Part shown: positions 1 to 37,021 of the stretch, one piece after another
Position numbering within the stretch: position 1 is the first letter of the stretch
How the letters are laid out: each line of letters starts with the position of its first letter
NCBI GenBank assembly: GCA_003132145.1
Contig: PKWU01000078.1
Location: 10,841 to 55,801, forward strand
DNA length: 44,961 nucleotides
Origin: Granulicella sp.
GTDB lineage: Bacteria > Acidobacteriota > Terriglobia > Terriglobales > Acidobacteriaceae
Direction of reading: 5' to 3'
The notes under the pieces: generated by a model
Databases searched by the model: none
The model's input: the letters and a program-made list of their open reading frames with translations, nothing else
What the model was told of the DNA's origin: nothing
Position numbers and translations under genes: made by a program

Positions 1-61
1 AATCGTTGCGGCTGCCCATGAGAACTGCGACAACTGGCTTGGTCTGCAATTTTGTCTTCAT
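1..61 (-). CDS. purE: PurE, N5-carboxyaminoimidazole ribonucleotide mutase (5' end only)
   Basis: The first 20 codons of a gene that leaves the window on the left. The translation begins MKTKLQTKPVVAVLMGSRND. The stretch VAVLMGSRND is the hallmark N-terminal strand and phosphate-binding loop of class I PurE, which converts N5-CAIR to CAIR in purine synthesis. The ATG lies at 61-59. A perfect TATAAT (74-69) sits 7 nt upstream with no Shine-Dalgarno between, so the mRNA may be leaderless. Only the start is visible, so everything after the MGS motif is assumed. purH is also in the window but 8 kb away, so the purine genes are not clustered here. Confidence 0.8.
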   Translation of the reverse strand, partial: MKTKLQTKPVVAVLMGSRND

Positions 62-68
62 GGCACAG

Positions 69-74
69 ATTATA
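69..74 (-). promoter_or_regulatory. -10 hexamer TATAAT for purE
   Basis: A perfect TATAAT on the minus strand ends 7 nt before the purE ATG. No good -35 is visible at 16-18 nt. Transcription would start at or next to the A of the ATG. Confidence 0.5.
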
Positions 75-229
75 CGGTCTAGCTTGCGCGGATTTTTACG
101 ATCCAACGGGTACGTTTTCCGACTATCCGTTCCGGGGAAATTGCGAAAGAGTTCATAGGGCGATGCAGGAACGGATGGCGAACGAGATTTGCTGTTACTT
201 CGCTTTATATACGTCTTTTATTCACCCCA

Positions 230-246
230 CCCCCCCCCCCCCCCCC
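230..246. repeat. 17-nt C homopolymer
   Basis: An uninterrupted run of 17 C residues, flanked by more short C runs (about 224-256). It lies about 170 nt upstream of the purE start. Such tracts vary in length by slippage. Whether this one affects any gene is unknown. Confidence 0.9.
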
Positions 247-304
247 ACCCCCACCCGCCTGCGGGGGATTAGCTGGTAAGAGGATTATTATGTGTCAATT
301 ACAG

Positions 305-433
305 ATAAAATATTCATAATGGATACGTTAGGCGTAAGCGGATTTGATCCAAGCGGTTACAGGGCGCCCTAGACTCCAAAGTATTCCAATGAAACAGGTT
401 ACGGATAAAGTATTCTCAACAGGATGGTTACGG
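305..433 (+). repeat. Repeats with TAAAGTATTC core (three units, two in perfect 29-nt tandem)
   Basis: Units at 305-332, 376-404 and 405-433 share the pattern (A/C)AAA(A/G)TATTC, a short A-rich stretch, then GGTTACGG or a variant. The last two are exactly adjacent and 29 nt each. The same core recurs at 7975-8047 (inverted) and inside the repeat field at 13590-14000, so this is a dispersed family. Apart from these units and the C tract, 75-438 holds nothing I can call. Confidence 0.6.
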
Positions 434-438
434 CTGCC

Positions 439-708
439 TCACTCAGCCGGGGTTGGCTTGGCCCAGAGGCTGGCGTTGAGGCAGTCAACCACACCATCGA
501 CGATGAGGCTGAGGCCAGCGGTGAACTTGGTGGAGTCGGCGATCTGCTTGCTGCTGACGGCGTCGGCCATATTGATGCTGGAGCTGACGATGGAGAGTGC
601 GGCGTCCTTCTTCTGCGCGCCGGACTTTGCGCCGTAGAGAGCTTCGACGCCCTGCACCAAGCTGGGCAGTAGGGAGATGCCGCGAAAGAACAATTTAAGG
701 AATTCCAT
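439..708 (-). CDS. Small phage-type protein, function unknown (89 aa)
   Basis: An 89-residue protein with two mostly hydrophobic stretches (about 3-24 and 60-80) and an alanine/serine-rich middle. A strong Shine-Dalgarno (GGAGG, about 7 nt before the ATG) supports the start. It lies about 110 nt downstream of a coiled-coil/TM protein on the same strand, in an arrangement reminiscent of phage lysis or tail-end cassettes. I do not recognise a named family. No large phage genes are visible nearby, so it is either an isolated remnant or a domesticated pair. Confidence 0.6.
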   Translation of the reverse strand: MEFLKLFFRGISLLPSLVQGVEALYGAKSGAQKKDAALSIVSSSINMADAVSSKQIADSTKFTAGLSLIVDGVVDCLNASLWAKPTPAE

Positions 709-754
709 GTGTTGCCTCCAAATTACGGTTCAAGAACAAACAAAAGAAAATACG

Positions 755-806
755 GGGATCCTTCTCTCCGTTCAGGATGACAATCTTGAACGGACGAGCG
801 GATCCC
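755..806. repeat. Nested inverted repeat (REP-like)
   Basis: Outer arms GGGATCC (755-761) and GGATCCC (800-806) enclose inner arms CCGTTCA (768-774) and TGAACGG (787-793). The loop contains TCAGGATGACA, which recurs in the palindromic repeat at 14478-14520. The element sits between the two small phage-like genes. Confidence 0.65.
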
Positions 807-819
807 GGTTTGGTACGGA

Positions 820-1041
820 TCATCGTCTTCCGATGAAGAAGTCGATGGCGACGTGGGCTATGGTGAGCAGGGCGCCAAACGCGGCGGCCATTCCTTTCAG
901 CCGTTGCACAATTTTTTCGTGCTCCTGCATGCGGCCTTCGAGTTGCGCGAGGCGGCCTGGCTGCCCGATGCCCATGAGCTCTTTCATCTGGCTCTTTAAA
1001 ACACTCAGGTCGGCCAGGACCTGCCCCTCGAAGTCCGTCAT
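820..1041 (-). CDS. Small coiled-coil and C-terminal TM protein, XhlA/holin-like (73 aa)
   Basis: A 73-residue protein. Residues 1-48 are polar with heptad-like leucines (coiled coil). Residues about 49-68 form one hydrophobic segment, followed by a positively charged end (GRR). This layout matches XhlA-type phage lysis accessory proteins, but no diagnostic motif is present. A clean AAGGAG lies 7 nt before the ATG. It precedes the 89-aa gene on the same strand and is probably co-transcribed with it. The phage assignment is inferred from architecture only. Confidence 0.6.
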   Translation of the reverse strand: MTDFEGQVLADLSVLKSQMKELMGIGQPGRLAQLEGRMQEHEKIVQRLKGMAAAFGALLTIAHVAIDFFIGRR

Positions 1042-1099
1042 CTTGCTGCTCCTTGTATTGCGATGTTGCGTTGCGGCTAGTGAAAGCCGGTGTGCCTCA

Positions 1100-1152
1100 G
1101 CGGCTAAAGCCGCAGTACAAATACAGCTTCTACGGCACGGCTAAATCCGTGC
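1100..1152. repeat. Pair of GGCTAAAGCC-type palindromes
   Basis: Two short hairpins: GCGGCTAAAGCCGC (1100-1113) and GCACGG-CTAAAT-CCGTGC (1135-1152). They share the CTAAA centre with the element at 44228-44243 near tRNA-Gly. Between the 73-aa gene and the hydrolase, this pair and the fragment at 1204-1407 are the only structures I see. Confidence 0.55.
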
Positions 1153-1203
1153 TCTTAAGCAAGGCAGGGTCTCCCGCAGACTGTTTAGCCGACTGGAAGA
1201 TTT

Positions 1204-1407
1204 GTGAAGATGGCGCTGGAAAGGCGCGAGTATGCTGTCCGTTGCGGTGCCGGCCTCGTCCTCCGTTTTGTCGAATTCGACGATGGAAGGCTCATCCTCC
1301 GCCCGCTCTCTCTTGCCTTCCCGGTTCAACTTCTTGCCCTAGGATCTCACGAATCCCCGGCGGACTACATCGTCGGCCGTGTCTGTCTCGTCGTCTCCGA
1401 GCTTTGA
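1204..1407 (+). pseudogene. Possible C-terminal fragment of a phage-repressor-like (S24/XRE) protein
   Basis: An open stretch of 67 codons whose translation looks protein-like: a V-E-F-D-D-G turn, then LILRP, a FPVQLL strand, and the ending PADYIVGRV. This cadence resembles the C-terminal beta domain of S24-type repressors. The frame is closed by a stop at 1186-1188, there is no helix-turn-helix and no Shine-Dalgarno, so it would be a fragment. Two phage-like genes next door fit a remnant. This is a weak call from pattern memory. Confidence 0.3.
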
Positions 1408-1468
1408 GCCGCACCTGCATCGCCCCGGCGAGGATGGGTTGCCCTTCTCATCTCGCCCAGGCGATTGA

Positions 1469-1474
1469 TAAACT
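1469..1474 (+). promoter_or_regulatory. -10-like TAAACT, 6 nt before the hydrolase ATG
   Basis: TAAACT at 1469-1474 is separated from the ATG at 1481 by 6 nt, with no Shine-Dalgarno. This is one of the leaderless-type starts in this window. Confidence 0.4.
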
Positions 1475-1480
1475 GTGTAA

Positions 1481-2707
1481 ATGCATTCGGGTCTGTATGG
1501 GAAGTGGATGACGGCGTGGGAGACAAAGCTCACAACGCGCGATACCAATCGGGTTGTAAGGCCCCTCGAATGGGGATTCGACTGGCTACAGGACTTTAGC
1601 GACGCCCACCCCACGGCGCGCTTTGAAGCCCCAGCGCAGGTCCAATCACCAGCAACATCCGACCCGCACAGCCTCAACCGCATGATCGCCCTGAACCAGC
1701 AGATCGTCGAACACTCCGATGATTTCTTCGGCTATCAGGTACCGCAGGACTTCCGCCTCGAACACCGCCATCCGGAGCTATACCCCACCAACGTCCGCCC
1801 GGAGACCCTCGCCCAGGACGCCGAGATGAAGCGTCAGGCCGCCAACGGAGAGCTCGACAAGGCCCAGTTCCTGCGCTTTACCTCCGCCGTCCGCACTTCC
1901 TATCCAGAAAACGACCAGATGAACGCCAGATGGTACCCGGCGCCCGAGCGCAAGCAATCTGCCGGACGTCCCCCAAGACCGAAGCAGGCCATTATCGTCC
2001 TGCCACAGTGGAACTCCGACGCAATCAGCCACAATGTTCTCTGCACCCTCTTCACCCGTTTCGGAATCTCTGCTCTCCGCCTCTCCCAGCCCTACCACGA
2101 CATCCGCCGCCCCGCCGAGCTGGAGCGCTCCGATTACGCCGTCAGCGCCAACATCGGCCGCACCACTGCCGCCTGCCGGCAGGCTGTCGTCGACATCCGC
2201 AGTTGCATGGACTGGCTGGAGACCCAGGGCTACACCCAGTTCGGCGTTCTCGGCACCAGCCTCGGCTCCTGCTACGCCTTCATCGCCGCCGCGCACGACC
2301 CCCGTCTGCGCGTCTGCGCCTTCAACCACGCCTCCACCTGGTTCGGCGACGTCGTCTGGGAGGGCCAGAGCACCCGCCACGTCCGCGTCGCGCTGCAAGA
2401 CGCTGGCCTCACTCAAGACCAGGTCCGCCAGATTTTTCTGGGCGTCAGCCCCATGTCCTACATGCAGCGCTTCGCCTCCACTCCCAAGCGGGTCCTCGTC
2501 ATCCACGCTACATACGACCTCACCTTCCCCCTGCATCTCTCGCTCGAGATTCTGAATGAATTTCAGCAGCTCAACATCGACTTCGTCTCCAAAGTTCTTC
2601 CCTGCGGCCACTACACCACAGGCGAGACGCCATACAAGTACCTCGACGGGTGGTATCTGGGATCGTTCATCTACCGGGCGTTCAGGAACCTCGCGGACCA
2701 CAGTTAA
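1481..2707 (+). CDS. Alpha/beta hydrolase (ABHD18/DUF2048-like)
   Basis: A 408-residue protein with an alpha/beta-hydrolase fold in its second half. The nucleophile elbow is GTSLGS (about residues 259-264, Ser as nucleophile). A late Asp in HATYDLTFP (about 346) and the His in CGHYTT (about 370) complete a plausible triad. The N-terminal 150 residues are a family-specific lead-in without a signal peptide, so it is probably cytosolic. The substrate is unknown. The start at 1481 follows a -10-like hexamer by 6 nt. A second ATG 27 nt downstream is possible. It stands alone on the plus strand ahead of acnA. Confidence 0.75.
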   Translation: MHSGLYGKWMTAWETKLTTRDTNRVVRPLEWGFDWLQDFSDAHPTARFEAPAQVQSPATSDPHSLNRMIALNQQIVEHSDDFFGYQVPQDFRLEHRHPELYPTNVRPETLAQDAEMKRQAANGELDKAQFLRFTSAVRTSYPENDQMNARWYPAPERKQSAGRPPRPKQAIIVLPQWNSDAISHNVLCTLFTRFGISALRLSQPYHDIRRPAELERSDYAVSANIGRTTAACRQAVVDIRSCMDWLETQGYTQFGVLGTSLGSCYAFIAAAHDPRLRVCAFNHASTWFGDVVWEGQSTRHVRVALQDAGLTQDQVRQIFLGVSPMSYMQRFASTPKRVLVIHATYDLTFPLHLSLEILNEFQQLNIDFVSKVLPCGHYTTGETPYKYLDGWYLGSFIYRAFRNLADHS

Positions 2708-2744
2708 CCCGCCAAATCCTCTTATCGCATCGCCATATTTGGCG

Positions 2745-2750
2745 TAAAAT
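2745..2750 (+). promoter_or_regulatory. -10-like TAAAAT for the 20-codon ORF
   Basis: TAAAAT ends 7 nt before the ATG at 2758, the same geometry as at purE, serS and kdsA. No Shine-Dalgarno is present. Confidence 0.4.
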
Positions 2751-2757
2751 TACATCG

Positions 2758-2820
2758 ATGGCACGCACTCCCAGGACGAAACGCTTCCGTCTCGGCCGCC
2801 GCGACCGCGGTCGCTCGTAG
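2758..2820 (+). CDS. Candidate 20-aa Arg-rich micro-protein or leader peptide
   Basis: A complete ORF of 20 codons with eight Arg and one Lys, giving a very basic peptide without hydrophobic stretches. It begins 7 nt after a TAAAAT hexamer and ends at a TAG, 180 nt upstream of acnA. It could be a small RNA-binding or ribosome-associated peptide, a regulatory leader of acnA, or chance. The reason to list it is the start geometry shared with real genes in this window. Nothing else proves translation. Confidence 0.35.
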   Translation: MARTPRTKRFRLGRRDRGRS

Positions 2821-3002
2821 TCCAGCGTGCGAACACATAAGTGCCTCGTAGACCGCTCCCCCCATCGCACCCCTTTATTTGATACGCTCTCCTCGTCCCG
2901 CCGATTTGCGTCCCTCTCAGCTTCCAGACGCGCTCCGGCCCTCAACTCGCGCCCACTACTCCCTTTCGAGTCCGCGCTGCCATTGGAATAATGGAGAAAA
3001 CG

Positions 3003-5849
<2,847 letters not shown>

Positions 5850-5906: not shown

Positions 5907-6890
5907 TTACAGCAGCGAGATGCCGCTGAGTCGCTCGCACTCGCTCCACAGCCGCGCTGCCGCTGCCTGGTCGAGCGCCTGCGGAGCCACCTTGGCCAAC
6001 CCCACATCGCCTCCGCGCATCTCCAGCAAGCCCTGCGGCCCGTAGTATCCGCCGTCCACCACATCCGGCGATGTCGCCGCAAACAGCGTCGGCACCGCGC
6101 CCTCCGCCTCCGAGTTCAGCAGTGCGCCAATCGCCACGCCGAATCCGCGCCGCAACACGCGCTCCGCCGCCGAATGCTCCCCCACCTGGAACAGGTTGGT
6201 GTTGGCCACGCCCGGGTGCGCCGCCGCGCTCATCACGCCGGAGATCGGCGGCCCGGCAGCGCGCAGTCGCCGGCCCAGCTCGAACGCAAGCATCAGGTCG
6301 GCCAGCTTCGACTGCCGGTACGCGATCATCGGCCCATAGTTCTTCGCCGATTGCAGATCGTCGAAGTTTAGCCGCCCCTGCTTGTGCGCAATCGACGCCA
6401 GCGTCACCACGCGCGGCCTTTGCGACCGAACCGCTGCCGCGCGCACCAGCGCTGGCAACAGCACCGCCGTCAGCACAAAGTGCCCCAGAACATTCGTCCC
6501 AAACTGAATCTCAAACCCATCTACCGTCTCATGTCGCTTCTTCGGGGCCATCACTCCCGCGTTATTAATCAGCAGGTCGAGCGGCTCGCCCAGTGCCAGC
6601 TCCGCCGCGCCAAACGCGCACACCGACGCCAGCGACGCCAGATCCAGCAGCACCACCTCAGCGCTCGCCGTGGGAACCTCGGCGCGCAGCCGCACCAGCG
6701 CCCGATCGCCCTTCGCCTTGTTCCGGCAGGCCAGCAACACATGCGCTCCCTTGCGCGCCAGCTCCAGCGCCGCGTGGTAGCCAATCCCGCTGTTCGCCCC
6801 GGTAATCAGCGCCCGCCGACCCGCCTGACTCGGCATCTCCGCCGCCGTCCATCCGCTGCCTACCACCTTACCCTCATCTGTTCCGCTCAT
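5907..6890 (-). CDS. Short-chain dehydrogenase/reductase (retinol-dehydrogenase-like)
   Basis: A 327-residue NAD(P)-dependent oxidoreductase. It shows the cofactor motif TGANSGIG (30-37), NNAG after strand 4, and the catalytic YxxxK as YRQSK. This is the layout of the WWOX/RDH-like classical SDR group. The substrate is not predictable. The ATG at 6890 follows TTTAAT by 6 nt and has no Shine-Dalgarno. The frame could be extended to 7010 but would then overlap the divergent methyltransferase. The gene converges on acnA with 57 nt between stops. Confidence 0.85.
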   Translation of the reverse strand: MSGTDEGKVVGSGWTAAEMPSQAGRRALITGANSGIGYHAALELARKGAHVLLACRNKAKGDRALVRLRAEVPTASAEVVLLDLASLASVCAFGAAELALGEPLDLLINNAGVMAPKKRHETVDGFEIQFGTNVLGHFVLTAVLLPALVRAAAVRSQRPRVVTLASIAHKQGRLNFDDLQSAKNYGPMIAYRQSKLADLMLAFELGRRLRAAGPPISGVMSAAAHPGVANTNLFQVGEHSAAERVLRRGFGVAIGALLNSEAEGAVPTLFAATSPDVVDGGYYGPQGLLEMRGGDVGLAKVAPQALDQAAAARLWSECERLSGISLL

Positions 6891-6896
6891 GCCGCC

Positions 6897-6902
6897 ATTA
6901 AA
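6897..6902 (-). promoter_or_regulatory. -10-like TTTAAT for the SDR gene
   Basis: On the minus strand TTTAAT lies 6 nt before the SDR ATG. TTGCGA lies 15 nt further upstream as a possible -35. Confidence 0.4.
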
Positions 6903-6953
6903 CCACGAGCACATGAATCGCAACCGTTGCATCCATCTTCTCTCCGCTCGCGA

Positions 6954-6959
6954 TAAAGT
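6954..6959 (+). promoter_or_regulatory. -10-like TAAAGT for the methyltransferase gene
   Basis: TAAAGT lies exactly 7 nt before the ATG at 6967. It shares a 76-nt divergent intergenic region with the SDR promoter. Confidence 0.4.
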
Positions 6960-6966
6960 AGATTGC

Positions 6967-7626
6967 ATGGGCCTTTTCGCAAAGAAGATCAAGCAGGAGC
7001 ACAAAGTCATGCTCCAGCACGAGCGCTCCGCCGGGGCCGTGCAGCCGGAGTATCACCGCGCCACCCCAGAGTGTCCCCAGCCCCAGCGCTGGAGCATGAT
7101 CGACTCAATGACCGCCGAGGTCGAAGTCCTCGAGTTCATAGCCACCCTTGTCACCACCCTCAAGCCCCGCCTGGTCGTCGAAACCGGCTCCTTCCTCGGC
7201 GTCTCCACCGAGTGGATCGCGCGCGGACTCGAACGCAACGGCCCGCTCCCCGACGGCTCCCGCGCCCGCATCATCAGTTGCGAGTTCGACCCCGTCGTCT
7301 TCGCCAAAGCCAAGGAACGCCTCGCCTCCTCGCCTCTCGCCCCCTGGATCGAACTCCGCAACGAGTCCAGCCTCGAGATGCACGTCGAGGGCACCATCGA
7401 CCTCTTCTTCTCCGACTCCGACCTCGACATCCGCGAGGCCGAGGTCAAGCGCTTTCTCCCCCAGATTAATCCCCACGGCATCATCCTCATGCACGACGCC
7501 AGCTCCCACCTCAAAACCGTCCGCGACGCCGCCCTCAAGATGGAATCCGAGGGCCTCCTCTCGGTCGTCCTCCTGCCCACTCCGCGCGGCCTGGTCATCG
7601 CCCAACCCCGAGCCAACCGCACCTGA
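6967..7626 (+). CDS. Class I SAM-dependent methyltransferase (Methyltransf_24 type)
   Basis: A 219-residue protein. VVETGSFLGVST is motif I of a Rossmann methyltransferase. ISCEFDP is the acidic end of strand 2. IDLFFSDSD and GIILMHDAS follow the later strands of the family. This group includes O-methyltransferase-like and cephalosporin-hydroxylase-like proteins often linked to glycan or secondary metabolism, but the substrate here is unknown. The start at 6967 fits the -10 at 7 nt. An upstream in-frame ATG at 6889 would overlap the SDR start. Confidence 0.75.
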   Translation: MGLFAKKIKQEHKVMLQHERSAGAVQPEYHRATPECPQPQRWSMIDSMTAEVEVLEFIATLVTTLKPRLVVETGSFLGVSTEWIARGLERNGPLPDGSRARIISCEFDPVVFAKAKERLASSPLAPWIELRNESSLEMHVEGTIDLFFSDSDLDIREAEVKRFLPQINPHGIILMHDASSHLKTVRDAALKMESEGLLSVVLLPTPRGLVIAQPRANRT

Positions 7627-8224: not shown

Positions 8225-9877
8225 TTATCCGTGACGGAAGTGGCGGATGCCAGTGAAGACCATCGCAACGCCAAGCCGGTCCGCCGCCGCGATCACCTCC
8301 GCGTCGCGTACCGAGCCGCCCGGCTGAATCACAGCAGTCGCGCCCGCCGCGACCACGGCCTCCAAGCCGTCCGCAAAGGGGAAGAAAGCGTCCGACGCAG
8401 CGACCGTCCCGTTGAGCGGCAGGATCGCCTTCATCGCTCCAAATCGCGCCGCGTCCACCCGGCTCATCTGTCCCGCGCCGATGCCTACGGTCTGGCCGTG
8501 TCCCTGGTTGCAGCGCGCATAGACGATGGCGTTCGACTTGACGTGCTTGCAGATGCTCCACGCAAAGCGCAATGCGCGCATCTCTTCCGCCGTGGGCGTA
8601 CGCTTGGTCGCGACCCGCAGATCGGCCTCTGCGACGGAGACGCGGTCGGCGTCCTGCATCAGGAAGCCGCCCGAGACCTGCTTCAGCGCGCGCACCGGCT
8701 TGTCCGCGTCCGCGTGACTCGCGGCGATCTCCAGCAGCCGCAGATTTTTCTTCGCGGCGAAGCGCGCGACCGCCTCGGGCGTAAATGAAGGCGCAATGAT
8801 CGCCTCGACGAACAACTTGGCGATCTCTTCCGCCGCCTCGGCGTCCACCTCGCGGTTGATGCCGATCACGCTGCCGAACGCCGACACAGGATCAGCCTCC
8901 AGTGCGCGCCGGTAGGCTTCGAGAACGGTCGCACCCGTCGCCGCGCCGCACGGGTTGGTGTGCTTGATAATCGCGACCGCGGCGTCCTCGGCGGCGTCGA
9001 ACTCGCCCACCAGCTCCCAGCAGGCGTCCAGATCGACGATGTTGTTGTAGCTCAGCTCCTTGCCCTGCAACTGCTTCGCCGCAGCCACGCCACGCCCGCT
9101 TCCATCGATATAGAGCGCGGCCTTCTGGTGCGGGTTCTCGCCGTAACGCAGCACCGTCTTCAGAGGATCGATCACGCGGACGGCTTGCGGCATCGCCTCC
9201 GCGTCGAAGATCGCCGGCTCGCCATGCGCAGCCGGTGCAGCAATGCTCTCCAGCGTCGTAGCGATGCCCGCGTCGTAGGCCGCCGTCACAGCGAAGGCCG
9301 CGCGCGCCAGCCGCCAGCGCGTCGCACGGCCCAGCGAGCCGGCGTTCGCGGCAAGCTCTTCGGCGATGAGCGCGTAGTCCGCCACAGAGGTGACAATCGC
9401 CACGTCCTCGAAGTTCTTGGCCGCCGAGCGCACCATCGACGGGCCACCGATGTCGATGTTCTCGATGATGTCACTGAACGCCGCGCCGGGTTTGGCCGCC
9501 GTCTTCTCGAACGCGTAGAGGTTGACCACCACCATGTCGATGGGTTCGATCCCGTGCTCGCGCACCGCAGCCATGTGCTCCGCATTCGCGCGGATGTGCA
9601 GGATGCCACCGTGAACCTTGGGATGCAGCGTTTTGACGCGGCCGTCGAGCATCTCCGGAAATCCGGTCAGGTCGCTGATGTCGCGCACGGTGAGGCCTGC
9701 CTCGCGCAGCGCGCGCGCGGTCCCGCCGGTCGAGACCAGCTCGACGCCATGCGACACCAATGCGCAGGCAAACTCGACCAGGCCGTTCTTATCGGTAACG
9801 GAGAGAAGGGCGCGGCGGACGCGGCGAAGACCGCTCAAGGTTTCAGGGCTGGCTGTGGGAACGGATTCAATGGTCAC
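8225..9877 (-). CDS. purH: Bifunctional AICAR transformylase/IMP cyclohydrolase
   Basis: A 550-residue enzyme for the last two steps of IMP synthesis. The N-terminal MGS-like IMP cyclohydrolase domain (about 21-215) contains the STGGTAR phosphate loop. The AICAR transformylase domain follows, with LRYGENPHQ (243-251) and KHTNPC (305-310), which holds the catalytic Lys-His pair. Length is normal for the family. The start codon is GTG (9877-9875), preceded by TAAAAT at 6 nt with no Shine-Dalgarno, so the message may be leaderless. pyrD lies about 80 nt upstream on the same strand, but purH appears to have its own promoter. Confidence 0.95.
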
Positions 9878-9883: not shown

Positions 9884-9889
9884 ATTTTA
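9884..9889 (-). promoter_or_regulatory. -10-like TAAAAT for purH
   Basis: On the minus strand TAAAAT ends 6 nt before the GTG start of purH, leaving no room for an SD-containing leader. Confidence 0.45.
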
Positions 9890-10952: not shown

Positions 10953-10958
10953 TAGAAT
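10953..10958 (+). promoter_or_regulatory. -10-like TAGAAT for serS
   Basis: TAGAAT is followed by 7 nt (TGTAGGG) and the serS ATG at 10966. Confidence 0.45.
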
Positions 10959-10965: not shown

Positions 10966-12426
10966 ATGCTTGACCTTGGATATGTACGGGCGAATCTGCC
11001 GGTTGTGGAAGAGAAGCTGCGCGCGCGCGGCATGGACCCGGCGGTCGTGCTTGGCGATTTTGCCGCCATCGACCAAAACCGGCGTGGCGGGATCACACAT
11101 TTGGAGCAACTGCAAGCTGAGCGCAATAAGAAATCTACGCAGGTGGAGGCGCTGCGAATACAGGCAAAGGCCGCCGAACCACTGGGCCTAGATGCAGTAG
11201 CGAAATTCTATGAACAAATTACTCCGCTCGAAAGCGACGTGCGGTTACTCAAAGAGCTAATTGAGAACGAAGAGAAGCATACTGCCTCACTCATTCAGCA
11301 ACTCAACGGGATACTGCAGTCTGTTCCCAACCTGCCGCAAGATTCCGTGCCGGTCGGTAAATCGGAGCAGGACAACCGCGTCGAGAAGATTTGGGACGGC
11401 GGCGAAAAGCTCACCTCCGACGGCAAACCCGACACAGCTTACATTCCCGCGGCACCCTCCTTTCACGCGCTGCCGCACTGGGAGATCGGCGAGCGGCTGG
11501 GCATTCTCGACTTCGAGCGCGCGGCCAAGATCTCCGGATCGCGCTTCGTCGTCCACTACGGCCAAGGCGCGCGGCTGGAACGCGCGCTGGCCAACTTCAT
11601 GCTTGACCTGCACACCCGCGAGCACGGCTACACCGAGGTTTTGCCGCCGTATATGGTGAACTCGAAGTCGCTCTTTGGAACCGGCAACCTCCCCAAGTTC
11701 GGCGAAGACCTCTTCCACTGCGACGACAAGGGACCCTACACCGGCCAACCGCAGGACAATGACCACTGGCTCATCCCCACCGCCGAGGTCCCGGTCACCA
11801 ACCTCTTCCGCGACGAGACGCTCGACGAGTCGCAGTTGACGACCAGCTTCTGCGCCTATACGCCGTGTTTCCGCTCCGAAGCGGGAAGCTACGGCAAGGA
11901 TGTGCGCGGGATGATTCGCCAGCACCAGTTCCAGAAGGTCGAGCTGGTCAAGTTCTGCAAGCCGGAGGATTCCAACGCCGAGCACGAGCGGCTGACGCGC
12001 GATGCCGAAGCGGTCCTCGAACGCCTCGGCCTGCCCTATCGGCGAATGCTCCTCTGCACCGGAGACATGGGTTTTGCTTCGGCAAAGACCTACGACCTGG
12101 AGGTCTGGCTTCCGGGGCAGAATCTCTACCGCGAGATCAGCTCCTGCTCGAACTTCGAGGCCTTTCAAGCGCGGCGGGCGAACATCCGCTTCCGGCCGAG
12201 CGGAGCAGCGCAGGGCAAGGCGAAGAAGAGCGAGTTTGTACATACACTGAATGGCAGCGGGCTGGCCGTTGGGCGAACCTACCTTGCGGTGCTGGAGAAC
12301 TATCAGCAGGCCGATGGCACGGTGCGCATTCCCGAGGCGCTGCTGCCGTATATGAACGATCCAAGCAAACCGCGCGCGGAGTGGGAGACGAAGATCGCGC
12401 CGCAGCGGCACACGGGCAGGAGCTAA
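10966..12426 (+). CDS. serS: Seryl-tRNA synthetase
   Basis: A 486-residue class II aminoacyl-tRNA synthetase. The N-terminal antiparallel coiled-coil arm (about 30-115) binds the long variable arm of tRNA-Ser. The catalytic domain has motif 2 ([14 protein letters not shown]) and motif 3 ([19 protein letters not shown]). It is about 50 residues longer than E. coli SerRS through small catalytic-domain insertions. The arm-coding DNA (about 11100-11320) is visibly AT-richer and uses different codons from the rest. It is followed 3 nt later by the 129-aa gene, so the three plus-strand genes 10966-13529 look like one operon. Confidence 0.95.
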
Positions 12427-14988: not shown

Positions 14989-14994
14989 TAGAAT
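14989..14994 (+). promoter_or_regulatory. -10-like TAGAAT for kdsA
   Basis: TAGAAT is followed by exactly 7 nt (AGGTTGC) and a GTG codon. The same hexamer and spacing precede serS. Confidence 0.45.
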
Positions 14995-15001: not shown

Positions 15002-15844
15002 GTGGATCATTCTTTCGATATCGGCGCTGTTCCGGTTGGCCGCGGCAAGCTGTTTTTAATCGCCGGGCCTTGCGTTCTGGAGTCCGAGACGCATGCACGG
15101 ATGCTGGCCGACGCGATCCAGCGCATCGCGGCAGACCTGGGCATTCCCTATATCTTCAAGGCCAGCTACGACAAGGCGAACCGCACCAGCATACGCAGCT
15201 TCCGCGGGCCGGGACTGGTGGAGGGCGCGCGAATCCTGCGGGCGATTGCCGAGAGCAATGGGCTGCCGATCCTGACGGACGTGCATACTCCGGAGGACTG
15301 CCTGCGGCTGTCCAAGGCGCTGGGCGACGTGGAGGCGGTGCTGCAGATTCCGGCGTTCCTGTGCCGGCAGACGGACCTTCTGATTGCGGCGGCGCACACG
15401 GGGCGGGCGATCAACGTGAAGAAGGGGCAGTTCGTTGCGCCCGTGGACATGCAGCACGCGTTGCTGAAGGTGCGCGACTCGGTGCTTCCGGGCAAGGCGA
15501 CGCGGGTGATGCTGACCGAGCGCGGCGCCAGCTTCGGATACAACAACCTGGTGGTGGACATGCGCTCGCTGCCGATCATGCGGCGGTTCGCGCCGGTGGT
15601 CTTCGACGCAACGCACTCGGTGCAGACGCCCTCGGCGGTCAATGGAGTGAGCGGCGGGCAGCCGGAGTTCATCGCGGTGCTGGCGCGCGCGGCGGTGGCG
15701 GCGGGAGTGGATGGGGTCTTCCTGGAGATACACGAGGACCCGGCGCAGGCGAAGTCGGATGGGGCCAATGCGCTGCGGCTGGACAAGCTGAAGGCGCTGC
15801 TGGAGCAACTGCTGGCGGTCCATGCGGCGGTGGCGGCGAAATAA
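15002..15844 (+). CDS. kdsA: 3-deoxy-D-manno-octulosonate-8-phosphate (KDO8P) synthase
   Basis: A 280-residue TIM-barrel enzyme condensing arabinose-5-phosphate with phosphoenolpyruvate to make KDO8P for the LPS inner core. Family motifs: LFLIAGPCVLES, FKASYDKANRTS, GRAINVKKGQF, TERGASFGYNNLVVDMR and FDATHSVQ. I prefer the GTG start at 15002, which gives MDHSFDIG and sits 7 nt after TAGAAT, over the in-frame ATG at 14984, which would overlap that box. It converges with the receiver-like gene. Confidence 0.93.
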   Translation: MDHSFDIGAVPVGRGKLFLIAGPCVLESETHARMLADAIQRIAADLGIPYIFKASYDKANRTSIRSFRGPGLVEGARILRAIAESNGLPILTDVHTPEDCLRLSKALGDVEAVLQIPAFLCRQTDLLIAAAHTGRAINVKKGQFVAPVDMQHALLKVRDSVLPGKATRVMLTERGASFGYNNLVVDMRSLPIMRRFAPVVFDATHSVQTPSAVNGVSGGQPEFIAVLARAAVAAGVDGVFLEIHEDPAQAKSDGANALRLDKLKALLEQLLAVHAAVAAK

Positions 15845-28355: not shown

Positions 28356-28356
28356 G

Positions 28357-31424: not shown

Positions 31425-31891
31425 GAACGCCCTCTCTCTTGTTCGATTTCAGCTTCGTTCATAGCAATCTCGACCGGTTCGTCGAGGAACTTCTTGTCTT
31501 CCTCGCTCGTGCCGGTGAGCAGGAAGGAGTTGGTGACGGCGGCCTTGTCCTGGTCGACGCGCGTGATGACGTAGGAGCAGCCGACCCAGTGCGCCTCGGC
31601 AAAGTCGGTCTGCGACCACTGGGCCGGACAGTCCGGATGGGAGTGGTAGAAGCCGACGATGTCCAGACCCTGCTTGCGTGCCTGTCGCTGGATGCGGATG
31701 AGTTCCTCGGGCGCGATGTTGTAGCGGTCGTGCGCGCGGTCGGTGCGTGTGTTGCCGGCGCGGACGATCTCGCGAACCTGGTTGCCCTCGGGCGTGGAGT
31801 TGCCCAGCAGCACACCGCAGCACTCGTGCGGGTAGTTCTCCTCGCCGTGAGCGCGCAGGGCTGCATAGTCGGAGTAGCTGAGATGCAACAT
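31421..31891 (-). CDS. mec: Mec-type JAMM metalloprotease
   Basis: A 156-residue JAB1/MPN zinc peptidase. The motif is complete: Glu23 in PHECCG, then H83-S-H85 and D96 in HSHPDCPAQWSQTD. In M. tuberculosis, Mec releases cysteine from the CysO-cysteine adduct. Related proteases in siderophore and methionine clusters (QbsD, HcyD) trim the residues after Gly-Gly of their carriers. Both activities would make sense here. It is translationally coupled at both ends: cysM-TAATG-mec and mec-ATGA-cysO. Confidence 0.92.
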   Translation of the reverse strand: MLHLSYSDYAALRAHGEENYPHECCGVLLGNSTPEGNQVREIVRAGNTRTDRAHDRYNIAPEELIRIQRQARKQGLDIVGFYHSHPDCPAQWSQTDFAEAHWVGCSYVITRVDQDKAAVTNSFLLTGTSEEDKKFLDEPVEIAMNEAEIEQERGRS

Positions 31892-32850
31892 TATTCCTCC
31901 CCCCAGAATCGTTCGCTGAGGTACTTGTCGGCCGAGTCGCAGAGGATGGTGACGATGACGGCCTCGCGACCGGCGCGGGCCTCCTGCTCGGCGACCTGCA
32001 AGGACGCGGCGACTGCGCCCGCTGCGGAGACGCCGACCAGCAGACCGTCGCGGCGGCCCAGATCGCGCGCGATGGTGTAAGCGCGCTCAGTCTGCATGAA
32101 GATGTTGGCGTCGGCGAGGGCGGCGTCGTAGATCGGCGGGACGATGGCCGTCGCCATGTGCTTGAGGCCCTCGAATCCGTTGAAGGGCGAGTCCGGCTGC
32201 ATGGAGATGCACTGGATGGCGGGGTTGAGTTCGCGCAGGCGGCGCGTGGTTCCCATGAAGGTTCCGCTGGTGCCGAGGCCGGCGATGAAGTGCGTGATCT
32301 GGCCCTCGGTCTGGCGCCAGATCTCGTTGGCCGTGGTGCGATAGTGGGCCTTCCAGTTCTGCGGATTGCCGTACTGGTCGGCGTAGAAGTAGTGGTCGGG
32401 TTCGGCGGCGATCAATGCGCGGGCCTTGCGGATTGCGCCGTCGGAGCCGTCATTGGGGTCGGTCCAGACGACCTCTGCGCCGTAGGCGGCGAGGATGTGC
32501 TTCCGCTCTTGGGAGACGTTCGATGGCACGCACAGCGTTACGGGAAAGCCCAATGCCGCGCCCAGCATGGCGTACGCGATGCCGGTGTTGCCGCTGGTGG
32601 CGTCGAGCAGCGCGTGGGAGTTTTTTTGATTATTTTCTTGGTTAAAACGGAGCAGGCCGCGCTTCTCGGCGTCGAGGACGATAGCGGCGGCGGCGCGGTC
32701 CTTGATGGAGCCGCCGGGATTGACCCACTCGACCTTGCCCAGGATCTGTACGCCGGGGAGGTGCGCGGTGAGCCGGTCGAGCGCAAGCAGCGGCGTGTTG
32801 CCGATGCGGTCAAGCAGAGACACCCCAAGCGCGCGCGCCGTTGCAATCAT
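31891..32850 (-). CDS. cysM: Cysteine synthase B-type enzyme (CysM)
   Basis: A 319-residue fold-type II PLP enzyme. K50 in NPGGSIKDRA holds the cofactor. SGNTGIAY binds the substrate carboxylate. GLGTSGT is the phosphate loop. In the CysO pathway it uses O-phosphoserine (or O-acetylserine) and thiocarboxylated CysO to form CysO-cysteine. Residues about 68-79 (Asn/Gln/Lys-rich, FNQENNQKNS) form an AT-rich insert between the second helix and the SGNTG strand. It is first gene of the operon, with AAGGGAA 8 nt before the ATG. Confidence 0.92.
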   Translation of the reverse strand: MIATARALGVSLLDRIGNTPLLALDRLTAHLPGVQILGKVEWVNPGGSIKDRAAAAIVLDAEKRGLLRFNQENNQKNSHALLDATSGNTGIAYAMLGAALGFPVTLCVPSNVSQERKHILAAYGAEVVWTDPNDGSDGAIRKARALIAAEPDHYFYADQYGNPQNWKAHYRTTANEIWRQTEGQITHFIAGLGTSGTFMGTTRRLRELNPAIQCISMQPDSPFNGFEGLKHMATAIVPPIYDAALADANIFMQTERAYTIARDLGRRDGLLVGVSAAGAVAASLQVAEQEARAGREAVIVTILCDSADKYLSERFWGEE

Positions 32851-32973
32851 CTGGGAGTTCCCTTTCTTAGTGTGCGGACAACAAATTGTGCGCGGCTGGC
32901 CTTCTCGCAGAGCGCCGATTGAAGGCTGGCCGTGGATGTGCGACAGTTAAGCCGAGTCTAACGTACCTAACTT

Positions 32974-33387
32974 ATGGCCAAGACGAAGCAGCCACGCAGC
33001 TTTACCGACGCGCTTGCCACGCTCGCCGGCCACCAATTTGATGTATCCGCGGCGCGCGACGCTTCAGGAACCGGCGCTAAAGCCTTCCAGGTGCGCAAAT
33101 ACGGCTGCGCGGCGGAGATTGCAGCCGCCGCCGACGGCACCACCGAGCTGCTGGCGCGGCCGGGATGGCTGTTGAATGGTGTGATCTCGCGGCTGGTGGA
33201 TCGGGGCTATCAGAAGTTCCTCAAGACGCCGACGGTCGAGATTCCCGCGACCGCCGACCATCTGCACGCGATTCATGAGTTCGGCGAGGAGCTGAAGGAG
33301 GGGGTTGGGGCGACCAGCCTGTACAACGAATCGCTGGGAACAACGAGTGATCGGTATCTGTATGACCGGGTGAAGGGGCGGGAGTAG
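32974..33387 (+). CDS. Conserved-looking hypothetical protein (137 aa)
   Basis: A soluble protein of 137 residues with a basic start (MAKTKQPR), an alpha/beta-looking middle (TTELLARPGWLLNGVISRLVD) and a C-terminal Tyr-rich motif (SDRYLYDRVKGR). There is no signal or TM segment. The reading frame and GC pattern match the surrounding genes. I do not recognise the family. It is divergent from cysM with 123 nt between, so it has its own promoter and no obvious role in cysteine synthesis. Confidence 0.6.
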   Translation: MAKTKQPRSFTDALATLAGHQFDVSAARDASGTGAKAFQVRKYGCAAEIAAAADGTTELLARPGWLLNGVISRLVDRGYQKFLKTPTVEIPATADHLHAIHEFGEELKEGVGATSLYNESLGTTSDRYLYDRVKGRE

Positions 33388-33466
33388 GGGTAGGTTGTCT
33401 AGCGTCCCGTTCTTCGCCGGTGTACGGCAAAAATACTTCCGAGAAAAGTCAATTCAGTTGCCGTTC

Positions 33467-33889
33467 TCAGAGGTCAACATGAAACACAACAACCCCCTGA
33501 TATGGAACCCCTTTGTCGTCGCGTACAATTGATGAAAACTTCCACTGCATCGCCGCTTTTTCCGCGAGTGATTTGAGAAGTGGGTTCCCGTTCCGAATTG
33601 CCCCTGCACACACCACCGAACCTCGTTCATCTACGAAGACACGGACATATATGTCGGCGTGTGCTGCTATGGTCGCCAATATCGGGCTTGACAGATCCGC
33701 CCGACTGAGAACGTGAGACTCCATTGCCTTCGCACTCAAAACCTTGAATGACGAGAACTTAGCGCATGCACTTGTCTTCGGCTCTTGGGCAGACAGGATG
33801 CTGTTTGCCAGAAATAGCACAATTGCAGCAGACAGAAGAAGCAGTGGGGCAGAACATGTTCGGAATTCTGTTCTACTGATCGCCTGCAT
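33467..33889 (-). CDS. TonB C-terminal-domain-like periplasmic protein
   Basis: A 140-residue protein with an N-terminal signal/anchor (about 13-33, ending SILSAQ), then a region resembling the TonB C-terminal domain (YVRVFVDERGSVVCAGAIRNGNPLLKSLAEKAAMQWKF). There is no Pro-rich spacer and the anchor is short, so it is probably not a canonical TonB. I start at ATG 33889 because GAGGAGGG lies 8 nt upstream. Base composition is lower in GC than the neighbours, a hint of recent acquisition. Confidence 0.6.
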   Translation of the reverse strand: MQAISRTEFRTCSAPLLLLSAAIVLFLANSILSAQEPKTSACAKFSSFKVLSAKAMESHVLSRADLSSPILATIAAHADIYVRVFVDERGSVVCAGAIRNGNPLLKSLAEKAAMQWKFSSIVRDDKGVPYQGVVVFHVDL

Positions 33890-34066
33890 TCGTTTTGCCC
33901 TCCTCTTGTGCTTTGTTAGTGGTGCCATTCACACACTGACGCCATGAACACTCCTCAAGGCTAGACGACTGAAATCGCCGAGTACAACATGTACCAAAGT
34001 ATAGCTCCCGACGGATCAGTAGCTCCCGATTCCTCCGGCTCTCGCGCGCATCCGTATGGGAATAAT

Positions 34067-35092
34067 TCATTTACTCCGTTCGCGTTGGAGTTCGCGGTAG
34101 GCTTCGCTCTTGCCCATGCCGCGGGCGCGGGCTACGCGCTTGAGGGCGTCTTTTTCGGCGAGGGACTCTTTTTGCATCAGATCGCGGACTTCGGCTGCGA
34201 TGCTGGCGGGCGCGGCTTCGCTGGAGGGCGCGGCGGCAGCAGGGACGAAGAGCAGAACGATCTCGCCGCGAACGGTGGCGCGGGCGGCGAGCGTCTTGCG
34301 CACCTCGGAGACAGCCCCGCGCAGGAACTCCTCGTGCAGCTTGGTCAGCTCGCGCGCGACGACGACGTGCTGCGTGGGGCCGAAGATCGAGGCAATGTCG
34401 GCGAGCGTTTCGAGGATACGGTGCGGTGCTTCGTAGAAGATCTGCGTGCCGATAGACTCGTCGCTGCTAGTGCTGCGGCGTAGGGATTCAAGCGCGGTGC
34501 GGCGCTGGCCCTCCTTCGAGGGGAGAAAGCCGTGGAAGGTGAACTGCTCGGCGTTTGTGCCGCTGGCTGCCGGGCCGGTTCCCGCCGGATTTGTTCCGGC
34601 TAGCGTGGTTCCGGCCGATCCAGTACCGGCGAGACCGCTGGCGATGAGCGCGCTGATGGCGGCGTTGGCTCCGGGGATGGGGAAGACGGGGACGCCCGCG
34701 GCAATCGCCGCCGCCGCGATTTGGCCGCCGGGGTCGGCGATGCCGGGGGTTCCCGCGTCGCTGACGACGGCGATGCGCGCGCCGGCACGGAGCGCTGCGG
34801 CAAGCTCAACGGCGCGGCCCGCCTCGTTGTGCATGTGGTAGCTGATGGTGGGTGTGCGGATGTCGAAGTGATTGAGCAGCTTCTGGGTCTGGCGCGTGTC
34901 CTCGCAGGCGATGCGGTCGACCGAGCGCAGGACGCGCAGCGCGCGCAGGGTGATGTCTTCCAGGTTGCCAATGGGCGTGGCGACGAGATAGAGGCCGGGG
35001 GCGAGGGGGCGCTGGGCAGCGGCGGATTCGCTTGATGACTCATCGTCGCGAATCAGGTCGTCATCGCTCTCTGGTTTTTGATCCGTCTTCAT
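34067..35092 (-). CDS. rsmI: 16S rRNA (cytidine-1402-2'-O)-methyltransferase
   Basis: A 341-residue tetrapyrrole-methylase-fold enzyme that 2'-O-methylates C1402 of 16S rRNA. Core motifs are LYLVATPIGNLEDITLRAL, CEDTRQTQKLL, VSDAGTPGIADPG and IPGANAAISALIASG. After this comes a low-complexity Ala-Gly-Thr insert (about 153-182) absent from typical RsmI, then FHGFLPSKEGQR and YEAPHRILETL. The N-terminal 30 residues are an extra acidic tail. AGGAG 9 nt before the ATG supports the start. It precedes the moderately distant S2P-like gene's end by 55 nt on the same strand. Confidence 0.93.
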   Translation of the reverse strand: MKTDQKPESDDDLIRDDESSSESAAAQRPLAPGLYLVATPIGNLEDITLRALRVLRSVDRIACEDTRQTQKLLNHFDIRTPTISYHMHNEAGRAVELAAALRAGARIAVVSDAGTPGIADPGGQIAAAAIAAGVPVFPIPGANAAISALIASGLAGTGSAGTTLAGTNPAGTGPAASGTNAEQFTFHGFLPSKEGQRRTALESLRRSTSSDESIGTQIFYEAPHRILETLADIASIFGPTQHVVVARELTKLHEEFLRGAVSEVRKTLAARATVRGEIVLLFVPAAAAPSSEAAPASIAAEVRDLMQKESLAEKDALKRVARARGMGKSEAYRELQRERSK

Positions 35093-35147
35093 CCGCGTTG
35101 CTCCTGGCCGGTCTTTCGCTTCTTCTGCTGCGGTCCCGCGTGTCGCG

Positions 35148-36332
35148 CTAGGAGTCTTCGGGGCGGCGGATGCGGCGGCTCTGGTTGAGCAGGCCCATGG
35201 ACTGCGAGAGGTTCTGCGGGGTGACGATGCCGACGATGCGCTCGCCCTGCATGACGGGGACGAGCTGTGCGCCCTGCGCGCCGGAGATGCGGCCCAGCGT
35301 ATTGACCAGCGAATCTTCGGGCAGAGCGGTCTGAAAGCTGCGCGTCATCACGCCCTGCACATAGCTGTTGCCGTTGGTGGCCAGCGCCTCCATGATGTTC
35401 TGACGGGAGACGGCTCCGACCAGATTGCCTCCACGCACCACGGGAAAGACGTCTTGCAGGGAGTGGACGGCGCGCTGTAGCGCGTCTTCCAGGGTGTCGG
35501 ATGCGGAGAGCGTGCTGAACTGGGTGAGCATGACGTCGCGCATGAGGACGCTGTCGGCGTCGTTCCTGACGAGCAGGTTTTGGCTCTCCATGTGGGCTGC
35601 GATGAGCACAAACGCGCCCATGATGAGAAGCCACATGTTGTTCAGCAGAAGCCCGGTGATTATCAGGGCTATGGCGATCCACTGGCCTAGCCCCGCGCTC
35701 CTCCCCCATCGGAGTCCCGCGCCCAGCCCAGCGCCCAATCCGGTGGCTGCTTCCGCGCCCGGCGCGGCGGGCCGTCGCTCGCCTTTGCCCTCCTGCGCTC
35801 CGGTTGTGGGAGCGCGTCGGAAGAAGCGTCCGCCATCCAGCGGAAAGGCGGGCAGAAGATTGATTACGCCGAGCAGAAGGTTCAGCCAGACCATGGCGCG
35901 CAGCAGGTGCGAGGGCGCAATCCACGGCCGCTGCAGCAGGTTGATGCCGGGCGTGGAGGCGAGCACGATCGCCGCGAGCAGAAGACCGAAGCCGATGTTG
36001 GCGAGCGGGCCGACGACAGCCATGCGGCGCTCAATTGCCGGCCCGGCGGCGCGCTCGGTGGCTTCGCGCGTGGCGTAGGTGCTGAGGCCGCCGGTGGGCA
36101 GCAGCAGGATTCCGCCGAGCTCCAGGCCGAACCATGCCGCAGCCAGAGAGCGCGCGACCTCGCGCACGGCGACGGCGAACAGCAGCAGGAGCCAGAGCAT
36201 CAGCCCGCGCCCGGTACTCGCACCGGCGAGCGAACCGAGACCGATCGCCACGGCGAGCAGGAGCAGGAAGAACGCATGGATGCGGACCTCCACTCCAAAG
36301 AAACGGCCGAGGGGGAAGCTCCATCCGCGCAT
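35148..36332 (-). CDS. Site-2-protease-like membrane protein with CBS pair, zinc motif degenerate
   Basis: A 394-residue polytopic protein. N-terminal M50-like membrane domain: TM segments at about 20-36 and 43-62, VGPLANIGFG (107-116), and NLLPAFPLDGGR (158-169), which retains the family Asp166. C-terminal CBS pair (about 270-394, MRDVMLTQFSTLSASDTLEDAL). In active S2P enzymes helix 1 carries HExxH. Here the aligned site is R57-E-V-A-R61, so both zinc histidines are gone. It is therefore likely a non-proteolytic pseudoenzyme that binds a partner or a nucleotide through CBS. TACAAT lies 6 nt before the ATG. Confidence 0.8.
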   Translation of the reverse strand: MRGWSFPLGRFFGVEVRIHAFFLLLLAVAIGLGSLAGASTGRGLMLWLLLLFAVAVREVARSLAAAWFGLELGGILLLPTGGLSTYATREATERAAGPAIERRMAVVGPLANIGFGLLLAAIVLASTPGINLLQRPWIAPSHLLRAMVWLNLLLGVINLLPAFPLDGGRFFRRAPTTGAQEGKGERRPAAPGAEAATGLGAGLGAGLRWGRSAGLGQWIAIALIITGLLLNNMWLLIMGAFVLIAAHMESQNLLVRNDADSVLMRDVMLTQFSTLSASDTLEDALQRAVHSLQDVFPVVRGGNLVGAVSRQNIMEALATNGNSYVQGVMTRSFQTALPEDSLVNTLGRISGAQGAQLVPVMQGERIVGIVTPQNLSQSMGLLNQSRRIRRPEDS

Positions 36333-36338
36333 CGCTCT

Positions 36339-36344
36339 ATTGTA
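36339..36344 (-). promoter_or_regulatory. -10-like TACAAT for the S2P-like gene
   Basis: Six nt before the ATG at 36332. A TTGACC lies 20 nt upstream of it, a rather long spacing for a -35. Confidence 0.4.
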
Positions 36345-36403
36345 TTCGCACGCGGGTTTCGCAAGGTCAAACAGAATGAGGCCGACCGTCGCGCTTGCCG
36401 TCA

Positions 36404-36409
36404 TAAGAT
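36404..36409 (+). promoter_or_regulatory. -10-like TAAGAT for rsmD
   Basis: Six nt before the rsmD ATG at 36416. The divergent S2P-like gene, 83 nt away, has the same arrangement. Confidence 0.35.
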
Positions 36410-36415
36410 TGAGAG

Positions 36416-37021
36416 ATGCGGGTTATCGCCGGGACCTATCGCTCACGTCAACTGATCGCACCACGCGGCAGCGGGACGCGGCCCACCAGCGACCGGCTGC
36501 GCGAGACGCTCTTCAATATTCTGGCGCCGAGGGTCGCGGGATGCCGCTTCGCCGACCTGTACGCTGGGACGGGTGCAGTGGGGATCGAGGCGATCAGCCG
36601 CGGGGCGGAGCATGTGTGGTTTGCGGAGAAGGCAGAGCCGGCGCTGGCGGCGATCCGGGCGAATCTGAAGGCGTTGCAGATTGCGCGCGGCTTTACGGTG
36701 GAGGAGCGCGAGACGGGGGCGCTGCTGGAACGGTTCGCCAAGGTCGCACAGAAGGCGGCGACTGAACCGGTGGAGGGCGCGCGTGCTGGCGATCTGCTCG
36801 ATCTCGTCTATCTCGATCCGCCGTGGGAGGCGGAGGCGGAGTACGCCAATACGTTGCATCTGCTGGGCAGCGCGCGGGGACGGCTGATGCTAGCGCCGAA
36901 CGCGCTGATTATTGCCGAGCACAAGAGCAAGGACCAGCTTGCGGAGCGGTACGGGGAGCTGGTGCAGGCGCGGACGTTGAAGCAGGGAGATGCGGCGTTG
37001 AGCTTTTACGCTGTGGGTTGA
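36416..37021 (+). CDS. rsmD: 16S rRNA (guanine-966-N2)-methyltransferase
   Basis: A 201-residue SAM methyltransferase acting on G966 of 16S rRNA. Motifs: MRVIAGTYRSRQL and RPTSDRLRETLFNIL at the N-terminus, DLYAGTGAVGIEAISRGA as motif I, and catalytic YLDPPW (usually DPPY, here Trp). A short Ala/Glu-rich insert precedes the DPPW strand. It converges with the PLP-enzyme gene with only 7 nt between stops. Together with rsmI, 1.3 kb away on the other strand, two 16S modification genes sit close together. Confidence 0.92.
   Translation: MRVIAGTYRSRQLIAPRGSGTRPTSDRLRETLFNILAPRVAGCRFADLYAGTGAVGIEAISRGAEHVWFAEKAEPALAAIRANLKALQIARGFTVEERETGALLERFAKVAQKAATEPVEGARAGDLLDLVYLDPPWEAEAEYANTLHLLGSARGRLMLAPNALIIAEHKSKDQLAERYGELVQARTLKQGDAALSFYAVG

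Follow-up and report, generated by a model that had tools for sequence, protein, structure and literature searches.

Introduction

In the arrest leader peptides TnaC and SpeFL, conserved residues are encoded in a short leader open reading frame (ORF), the downstream gene is initiated separately, and the spacer between them is prone to Rho action. Here, a stretch of 44,961 nucleotides (nt) from Granulicella sp. (assembly GCA_003132145.1, contig PKWU01000078.1, positions 10,841 to 55,801 of the forward strand), referred to as the window, was analysed for -10-like hexamers close to start codons and for a 20-codon ORF upstream of the aconitase gene acnA, referred to as the acnA leader. The acnA leader resembles TnaC and SpeFL in its conserved short ORF and separate downstream start, but ligand, arrest and Rho are only proposed for it, and it is set apart from both in being itself putatively leaderless in the window's genus. 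We know of no acnA-linked family with the core KRFRxGRxDRGR. On sequence grounds we consider it probable that ten starts listed for the window are mostly leaderless or nearly so, and that the 20-codon ORF encodes an acnA leader peptide acting in cis.

Shell and colleagues reportedly described leaderless small ORFs of mycobacteria in 2015; the acnA leader would be like the mycobacterial cases in combining leaderless transcripts with small proteins, and belongs to another phylum. Leaderless transcripts and small proteins are common in mycobacteria, according to a passage of PMC4633059. According to a passage of Zheng et al. 2011 (PMC3160421), leaderless bacterial genes are marked by a TANNNT whose first T lies about 12 nt ahead of the start, and such genes were found in 3/3 acidobacterial genomes at an average of 13.3% (range 9.7-19.4%). 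The sequence-only reading of the window had named Deinococcus and Actinobacteria as precedents; on that passage (PMC3160421) the Acidobacteria themselves are a published precedent. The TA-led genes described there (PMC3160421) are of the same kind as those reported here, coexisting with Shine-Dalgarno (SD)-led genes, and the present data extend them to one more acidobacterium, where the excess comes to about 6% of called genes. Leaderless transcription in this genome is thus supported by sequence and already published for the phylum. Part of Korolev et al. 2016 (PMC4833913) reports leader ORFs that lack annotation and precede structural genes, in Acidobacteria among others.

The spacing of the -10 hexamer served here as a way to find real tiny genes, and it exposed a conserved leader peptide before a central metabolic enzyme. 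Should the peptide regulate aconitase, the tricarboxylic acid cycle of soil bacteria would gain a new point of control, leaderless in this genus. The acnA leader also gives toeprinting and reporter assays something definite to work on.

The putative acnA leader peptide and its linkage to acnA

The features of the locus are as follows.

2758..2820, + strand: putatively leaderless 20-codon leader-peptide gene of acnA, MARTPRTKRFRLGRRDRGRS, stop TAG at 2818-2820 (orthologue profile, acnA linkage, synonymous bias)
2821..3002, + strand: leader-acnA spacer, C-rich (C 0.43, G 0.19 over 2821-2979)
3003..5849, + strand: acnA (aconitase), SD-led, Pfam Aconitase 4.4e-167, GGAG at 2993-2996 (-10)

The leader peptide is Arg-rich, 20-30 amino acids long across loci and variable at its N-terminus, and towards its C-terminus carries the core KRFRxGRxDRGR. 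Upstream of acnA, a short ORF with this core was found in 11 of 30 family loci (L279-L308, the window's included), among those closest by identity; one of these ORFs was cut by a contig end, and ten peptides were aligned for a profile. Over 250 family genomes the profile matched in 98 at E <= 9.3e-5 (100 places), followed by a gap to 1.6e-3, and the matches spanned 24 of 79 family genera (genomes and genera counted by eye). Among 200 genomes of the class, 35 matched at E <= 1e-3, comprising 21 of the window's genus (21/21 genomes searched), 11 from elsewhere in the family and 3 from outside it. The last three (G368, G389 and G417) were rejected as acnA leaders, acnA being absent from the fetched stretches and the G389 match lying inside a long frame. 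In two of these genomes, G368 and G417 of family f6, loci L363 and L364 hold short ORFs with RFHLGRPDRGRKD, which is like the leader core.

In the 30 best loci acnA lay directly downstream in 29, the remaining one being cut by a contig end. A second set joined two automatic loci to 20 chosen weak matches (18 at E 5.0e-7 to 9.3e-5, the others at 1.6e-3 and 3.1e-3). In this set acnA was in the stretch in 21/22, and the strict motif was within the 400 nt before acnA in 18 of those 21; L353, L358 and L359, where acnA is present and the strict motif is not, were excluded from the codon tests. Both acnA and the strict motif were present in all of 14 further congeners. For the 66 loci covered, which are fewer than the 98 genomes with a profile match, acnA was in the fetched stretch in 64 and the strict motif within 400-500 nt before acnA in 61. 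A contig end cut L321/L379 (the same place), L308 was also cut, and L346 lacked acnA. The window's genome has a single copy of the core pattern, and in 3.3 Mb of fetched DNA it was found only at acnA loci, besides one unrelated frame in L236.

No model for the leader peptide was found in Pfam or NCBIfam (0 families for 10/10 peptides, E <= 1), nor was the peptide found in a search of the PMC literature, which misses most subscription papers. The 20-codon ORF is a conserved, apparently undescribed peptide gene, and it is the new part relative to the published leaderless starts.

As in a cis-acting leader, the short ORF lies 5' of the same gene and is conserved at the amino-acid level; action in cis is proposed because the peptide stays linked to acnA. 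A free-standing microprotein, binding for example aconitase or RNA and co-transcribed with acnA by chance, would equally conserve amino-acid rather than codon identity, and the strongly basic composition suits a binding peptide. We nevertheless regard this explanation as unlikely, since a trans-acting gene should sometimes move, whereas acnA was found at 64/66 loci and the core only once in the window's genome, and since a length of 20-30 amino acids with a variable N-terminus suits a leader peptide better.

Conservation of the coding sequence

Information by codon position in the 12-codon core of 30 sequences was 1.84, 1.63 and 0.75 bits. Among 56 distinct 11-codon cores from 62 loci, the synonymous share of single-nucleotide codon differences was 85% against 28% expected, and in frames +1 and +2 it was 3% and 17%; the test compares fractions, because the pairs share ancestry and are not independent events. 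Three Arg, two Gly and the Asp were invariant in 30/30 sequences, and the aromatic site of the core was F in 27 and Y in 3.

These data bear on a classical attenuation scheme, in which low charged tRNA-Arg would stall the ribosome as in amino-acid attenuators. The presence of several Arg codons within 20-30 codons speaks for such a scheme, but the F, G, D and G sites are about as invariant as Arg, the Arg codons of the core vary over CGN and AGR, no attenuator hairpins were found in the spacers, and aconitase lies outside the arginine pathway; we hold attenuation at Arg codons to be very unlikely.

The acnA start and the spacer

The acnA start was placed at ATG 3003 in preference to ATG 2991 because of the GGAG at 2993-2996, with which ATG 2991 overlaps; the same arrangement of SD and ATG is present in L280. 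Across loci 51-182 nt separate the leader stop from the acnA ATG, and an SD-like sequence precedes the acnA ATG in most loci (judged by eye).

These distances bear on whether the leader raises acnA translation by re-initiation or coupling, as Korolev et al. 2016 propose for such leader genes, Acidobacteria included, in the part of their paper used here (PMC4833913). The leader genes described there peak at a spacing of 10-11 nt, against 51-182 nt for the acnA leader, and that part mentions no conserved peptide of the acnA-leader kind (PMC4833913). As SD-like sequences also precede acnA itself, re-initiation or coupling seems highly improbable.

A terminator-hairpin attenuator was rejected, for conserved alternative hairpins were sought in the spacers and none was clearly above control. 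Folding of the alignment and counting of pairs gave only a 5-pair hairpin, situated inside the ORF core, the covariation of which was reached by 40/500 shuffles.

Putative promoter and start of the leader peptide

Of 48 loci, 44 had a -10-like hexamer no more than 20 nt ahead of the peptide start (TAAAAT 21, TAGAAT 10, TACAAT 6, others 7), and the 4 loci without it were excluded from the column tally. Of the 44 hexamers, 23 were at a distance of 6-9 nt, 17 at 11-15 and 4 at 18-20. When the sequences were aligned on the hexamer, G was found at -4 in 39/44 loci and T at -24 in 26/44. In the alignment of acnA leader loci the T at -24 fits the TTG of a putative -35 element, and the nearly fixed G at -4 is perhaps part of a lineage-specific extended -10 element.

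Within the window's genus, TANNNT occurred 6-8 nt before the peptide start in 19/21 genomes including the window's (14 at exactly 7), and this spacing is kept although most of the spacer sequences differ; part of the upstream sequences are near-identical (e.g., L366 and L368) and do not represent independent events. Counting every TANNNT at 0-40 nt in the genus, just four at 1, one at 19 and one at 24 fell outside 6-8. This arrangement leads us to infer a leaderless start for the peptide in the window's genus. TANNNT is missing at 6-8 nt in the other two, L360 and L378; in L360 (G409) an upstream in-frame ATG is preceded by GGTGGAG, as if the start were now SD-led. Six of the 48 loci (L310, L315, L322, L326, L331 and L334) have the hexamer at 12-13 nt and CAGGAC directly before the ATG, an arrangement in which the mRNA would begin with a 5-7 nt leader holding a minimal SD.

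Starts in the window and the peak in the genome sample

The sequence-only reading had listed ten starts, each preceded by a hexamer at 6 or 7 nt.

69..74, - strand: TATAAT, 7 nt before purE ATG at 61
1469..1474, + strand: TAAACT, 6 nt before alpha/beta hydrolase-like ATG at 1481
2745..2750, + strand: TAAAAT, 7 nt before leader-peptide ATG
6897..6902, - strand: TTTAAT (not TANNNT), 6 nt before SDR ATG at 6890
6954..6959, + strand: TAAAGT, 7 nt before methyltransferase ATG at 6967, divergent to SDR
9884..9889, - strand: TAAAAT, 6 nt before purH GTG at 9877
10953..10958, + strand: TAGAAT, 7 nt before serS ATG at 10966
14989..14994, + strand: TAGAAT, 7 nt before kdsA GTG at 15002
36339..36344, - strand: TACAAT, 6 nt before S2P-like (M50 + CBS) ATG at 36332
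36404..36409, + strand: TAAGAT, 6 nt before rsmD ATG at 36416, divergent to S2P

All ten hexamers were present at exactly the distances listed, and none of the ten starts had GGAG, GAGG, AGGA or AAGG within 15 nt, in agreement with the statement that an evident SD is lacking; at serS, GGAGG is located at -19, beyond the normal SD range. The gene names also held in a Pfam run covering acnA and eight of the ten genes (those other than purE and the 20-codon ORF), with support for SDR, methyltransferase, PurH, SerS, DAHP_synth_1 (which we take to be KdsA), M50 with CBS and Cons_hypoth95 (presumably RsmD), and weakly for the hydrolase. The listed hexamers mostly appear to be sigma-70-type -10 elements, with transcription probably starting on the start codon itself or about 0-3 nt from it.

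The window is part of a draft genome of 3.17 Mb in 89 contigs. In a comparison of SerS, Granulicella and other Acidobacteriaceae came out as the closest named genomes, at 68% identity or less, which places the genome in that family or near it. A sample of 760,940 bases of this genome (about a quarter) was taken, in which 504 genes were called with an iterative codon-usage scorer that we regard as crude. Any start up to 25 codons upstream or 12 codons downstream of the best-scoring one was admitted as a candidate. TANNNT was present 6-7 nt before an ATG or GTG candidate in 47/504 genes, compared with 16.9 +/- 3.8 in 200 upstream shuffles (maximum 29). By distance, the counts were 30 at 6, 18 at 7, 13 at 8 and 15 at 9, with a background mean of 6.2 at 14-25 nt. 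The peak is thus at 6-7 as had been claimed, but 'exactly 6-7 nt' was too strict, distances 8 and 9 being enriched too. The excess corresponds to about 6% of called genes in this sample and probably understates the true share, since the caller places starts wrongly. In the window alone, the caller gave 4 of 33 genes versus 0.85 expected (10/1000 shuffles reach 4), and it misses the rest of the ten either because their starts are outside its range or because the gene is truncated, is short or lacks TANNNT.

Seven patterns of the same A/T content (ATNNNT, TTNNNA, TANNNA, AANNNT, ATNNNA, TTNNNT and AANNNA) gave no comparable peak at 6-7, the best of them, ATNNNT, having 15 at distance 6, equalled by 15 at distance 0. 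No 6-7 peak was obtained with TTG candidate starts (2 and 3 of 223). Apart from a period of three, internal in-frame starts (8,369) gave nothing unusual at 6-7. The proposal that leaderless starts extend beyond the window had been tied to a genome-wide count by distance with shuffled controls, and in the sampled quarter of the genome this count revealed a peak specific to TANNNT and to ATG/GTG. The further proposal of two start classes side by side is borne out by SD-like tetramers in 206/504 genes versus 127 in shuffles, the SD-led class being the larger. Across 36 aligned TA-led genes of the sample no clear column of a -35 box was detected; G four bases before the -10 hexamer was seen in 47% of them, weaker than in the acnA leaders.

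That the hexamers are merely AT-rich, weakly structured initiation regions and no promoters, as their shortness and the want of a clear depletion of TA-led genes in tight co-directional pairs might suggest, is extremely improbable given the failure of the seven permuted patterns to peak, the -35-like and -4 G signals beside the hexamer at the acnA leader, and the 7 nt spacing kept by the genus while the spacer letters diverged.

An identical procedure was applied to small samples of other genomes with 40 shuffles each. The TANNNT excess was 6.1% in a congener of the window's genome (85 genes, z 2.8), and 5.7% in genome G009 (64 genes, z 2.6). Two other family genomes, G018 (29 genes, z 0.5) and G048 (56 genes, z 1.2), gave 2.2% and 2.5%, neither being significant. 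For two sets of loci from named acidobacteria the excess was 4.2% (z 2.5) and 3.1% (z 2.8). In four other families of the class, represented by one genome each, it ranged from -1.4 to +1.8%, the 22-68 genes per genome being too few to infer absence of the trait. Outside the phylum no excess was obtained in Geobacter/Desulfo loci (-1.4%) or Bacilli loci (-3.8%). The SD excess followed the opposite trend, with 16% in the window's genome, 41% in Geobacter/Desulfo and 45% in Bacilli.

Proposed mechanism

In the arrangement proposed for acnA, a -10 hexamer would drive a transcript carrying the 20-codon leader peptide at its very 5' end, the acnA mRNA presumably beginning at the leader start codon. 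Ribosomes would load on the 5'-terminal ATG and make the Arg-rich peptide, the core of which, once in the exit tunnel, may slow or arrest the ribosome. The slowed ribosome might then alter access of Rho to the spacer or of ribosomes to the acnA SD, and acnA would be translated from its own SD 51-182 nt after the leader. A peptide that slows or arrests the ribosome is suggested because residues are conserved near the C-terminus, synonymous change is free, the ORF is linked in cis and acnA has a separate SD. We give a nascent-peptide mechanism of this general kind somewhat less than an even chance. Its more specific form, in which the Arg-rich chain from a leaderless start senses citrate/isocitrate or iron/redox, arrests the ribosome and decides between RNA polymerase and Rho before acnA, is quite unlikely.

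Several observations weigh against leaderless starts and a cis-acting acnA leader as read here. A strong profile match is missing in 55 of the 79 family genera. In the 41 loci outside the genus, the hexamer lies at 6-9 nt in 17 and at 11-20 nt in 20 (17 at 11-15 and 3 at 18-20), and is absent in 4; in some of the 20 loci at 11-20 nt an AGGA-like SD stands between the hexamer and the start. With so many of these loci having a distant hexamer or none, a leaderless start would not be essential to the peptide. The counts were, moreover, not blind, hexamer and start having been chosen jointly in the 48 loci and the genus starts having been picked after the hexamers were seen. No conserved RNA fold was found in 29 orthologous spacers (mean z -0.43), and no attenuator hairpin was supported. 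The C bias of the spacers is mild (C 0.35 versus G 0.25 over 30 spacers, with 0.29 versus 0.28 in the control from the window's genome). A pure promoter signal should be rarer in tight co-directional pairs, yet TA-led genes showed no clear depletion there (8/69 with a gap under 30 nt, 5/39 at 30-80, 10/195 at 80 or more and 21/160 divergent), which may stem from the caller's start errors.

Orthologues of the listed starts

Orthologous starts were compared for serS, rsmD, S2P, kdsA and purH, with acnA as the SD-led control, in which TANNNT was found at distances 4-9 in 1/30 loci. For serS, TAAAAT was present at 8-9 in 4/4 congeneric loci, and TAAACT at 9 in L107 of another genus. For rsmD, TANNNT was present at 6-9 of the same ATG in 6/10 nearest other loci (L250-L259), and none was found at 6-9 of that start in L260-L278. 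The S2P hexamer TACAAT was kept at 6-9 of the aligned ATG in 4/26 other loci (L250, L251, L258 and L262), and in L277 and L278 TAAAAT was located at 8 of an ATG 8 codons upstream.

The ambiguous kdsA start had been considered settled by the hexamer; its position is indeed kept, with a candidate start within two codons of the GTG in 26/29 other loci, but TANNNT at 6-7 of such a start was present in only 7/29. For purH, TAAAAT was located at 8 of an ATG in the sole congener (L190); among the other 28 loci TANNNT at 4-9 was seen only in L201 (ATG 20 codons in) and L213 (TTG), and several other loci had an SD-like stretch. Since the hexamer is kept mainly in near relatives, the start class shifts with distance, which agrees with a statement on bacteria generally in the part of Zheng et al. 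2011 referred to above (PMC3160421).

Two divergent pairs, SDR/methyltransferase (6890-6967) and S2P/rsmD (36332-36416), have hexamers 6-7 nt before both starts, which would place two facing promoters within 76-83 bp. A further hexamer near a start, absent from the original list, was seen at 301-369 of the window, where TAAAAT lies 7 nt before the ATG (319) of a 17-codon ORF, with a poly-C tract upstream.

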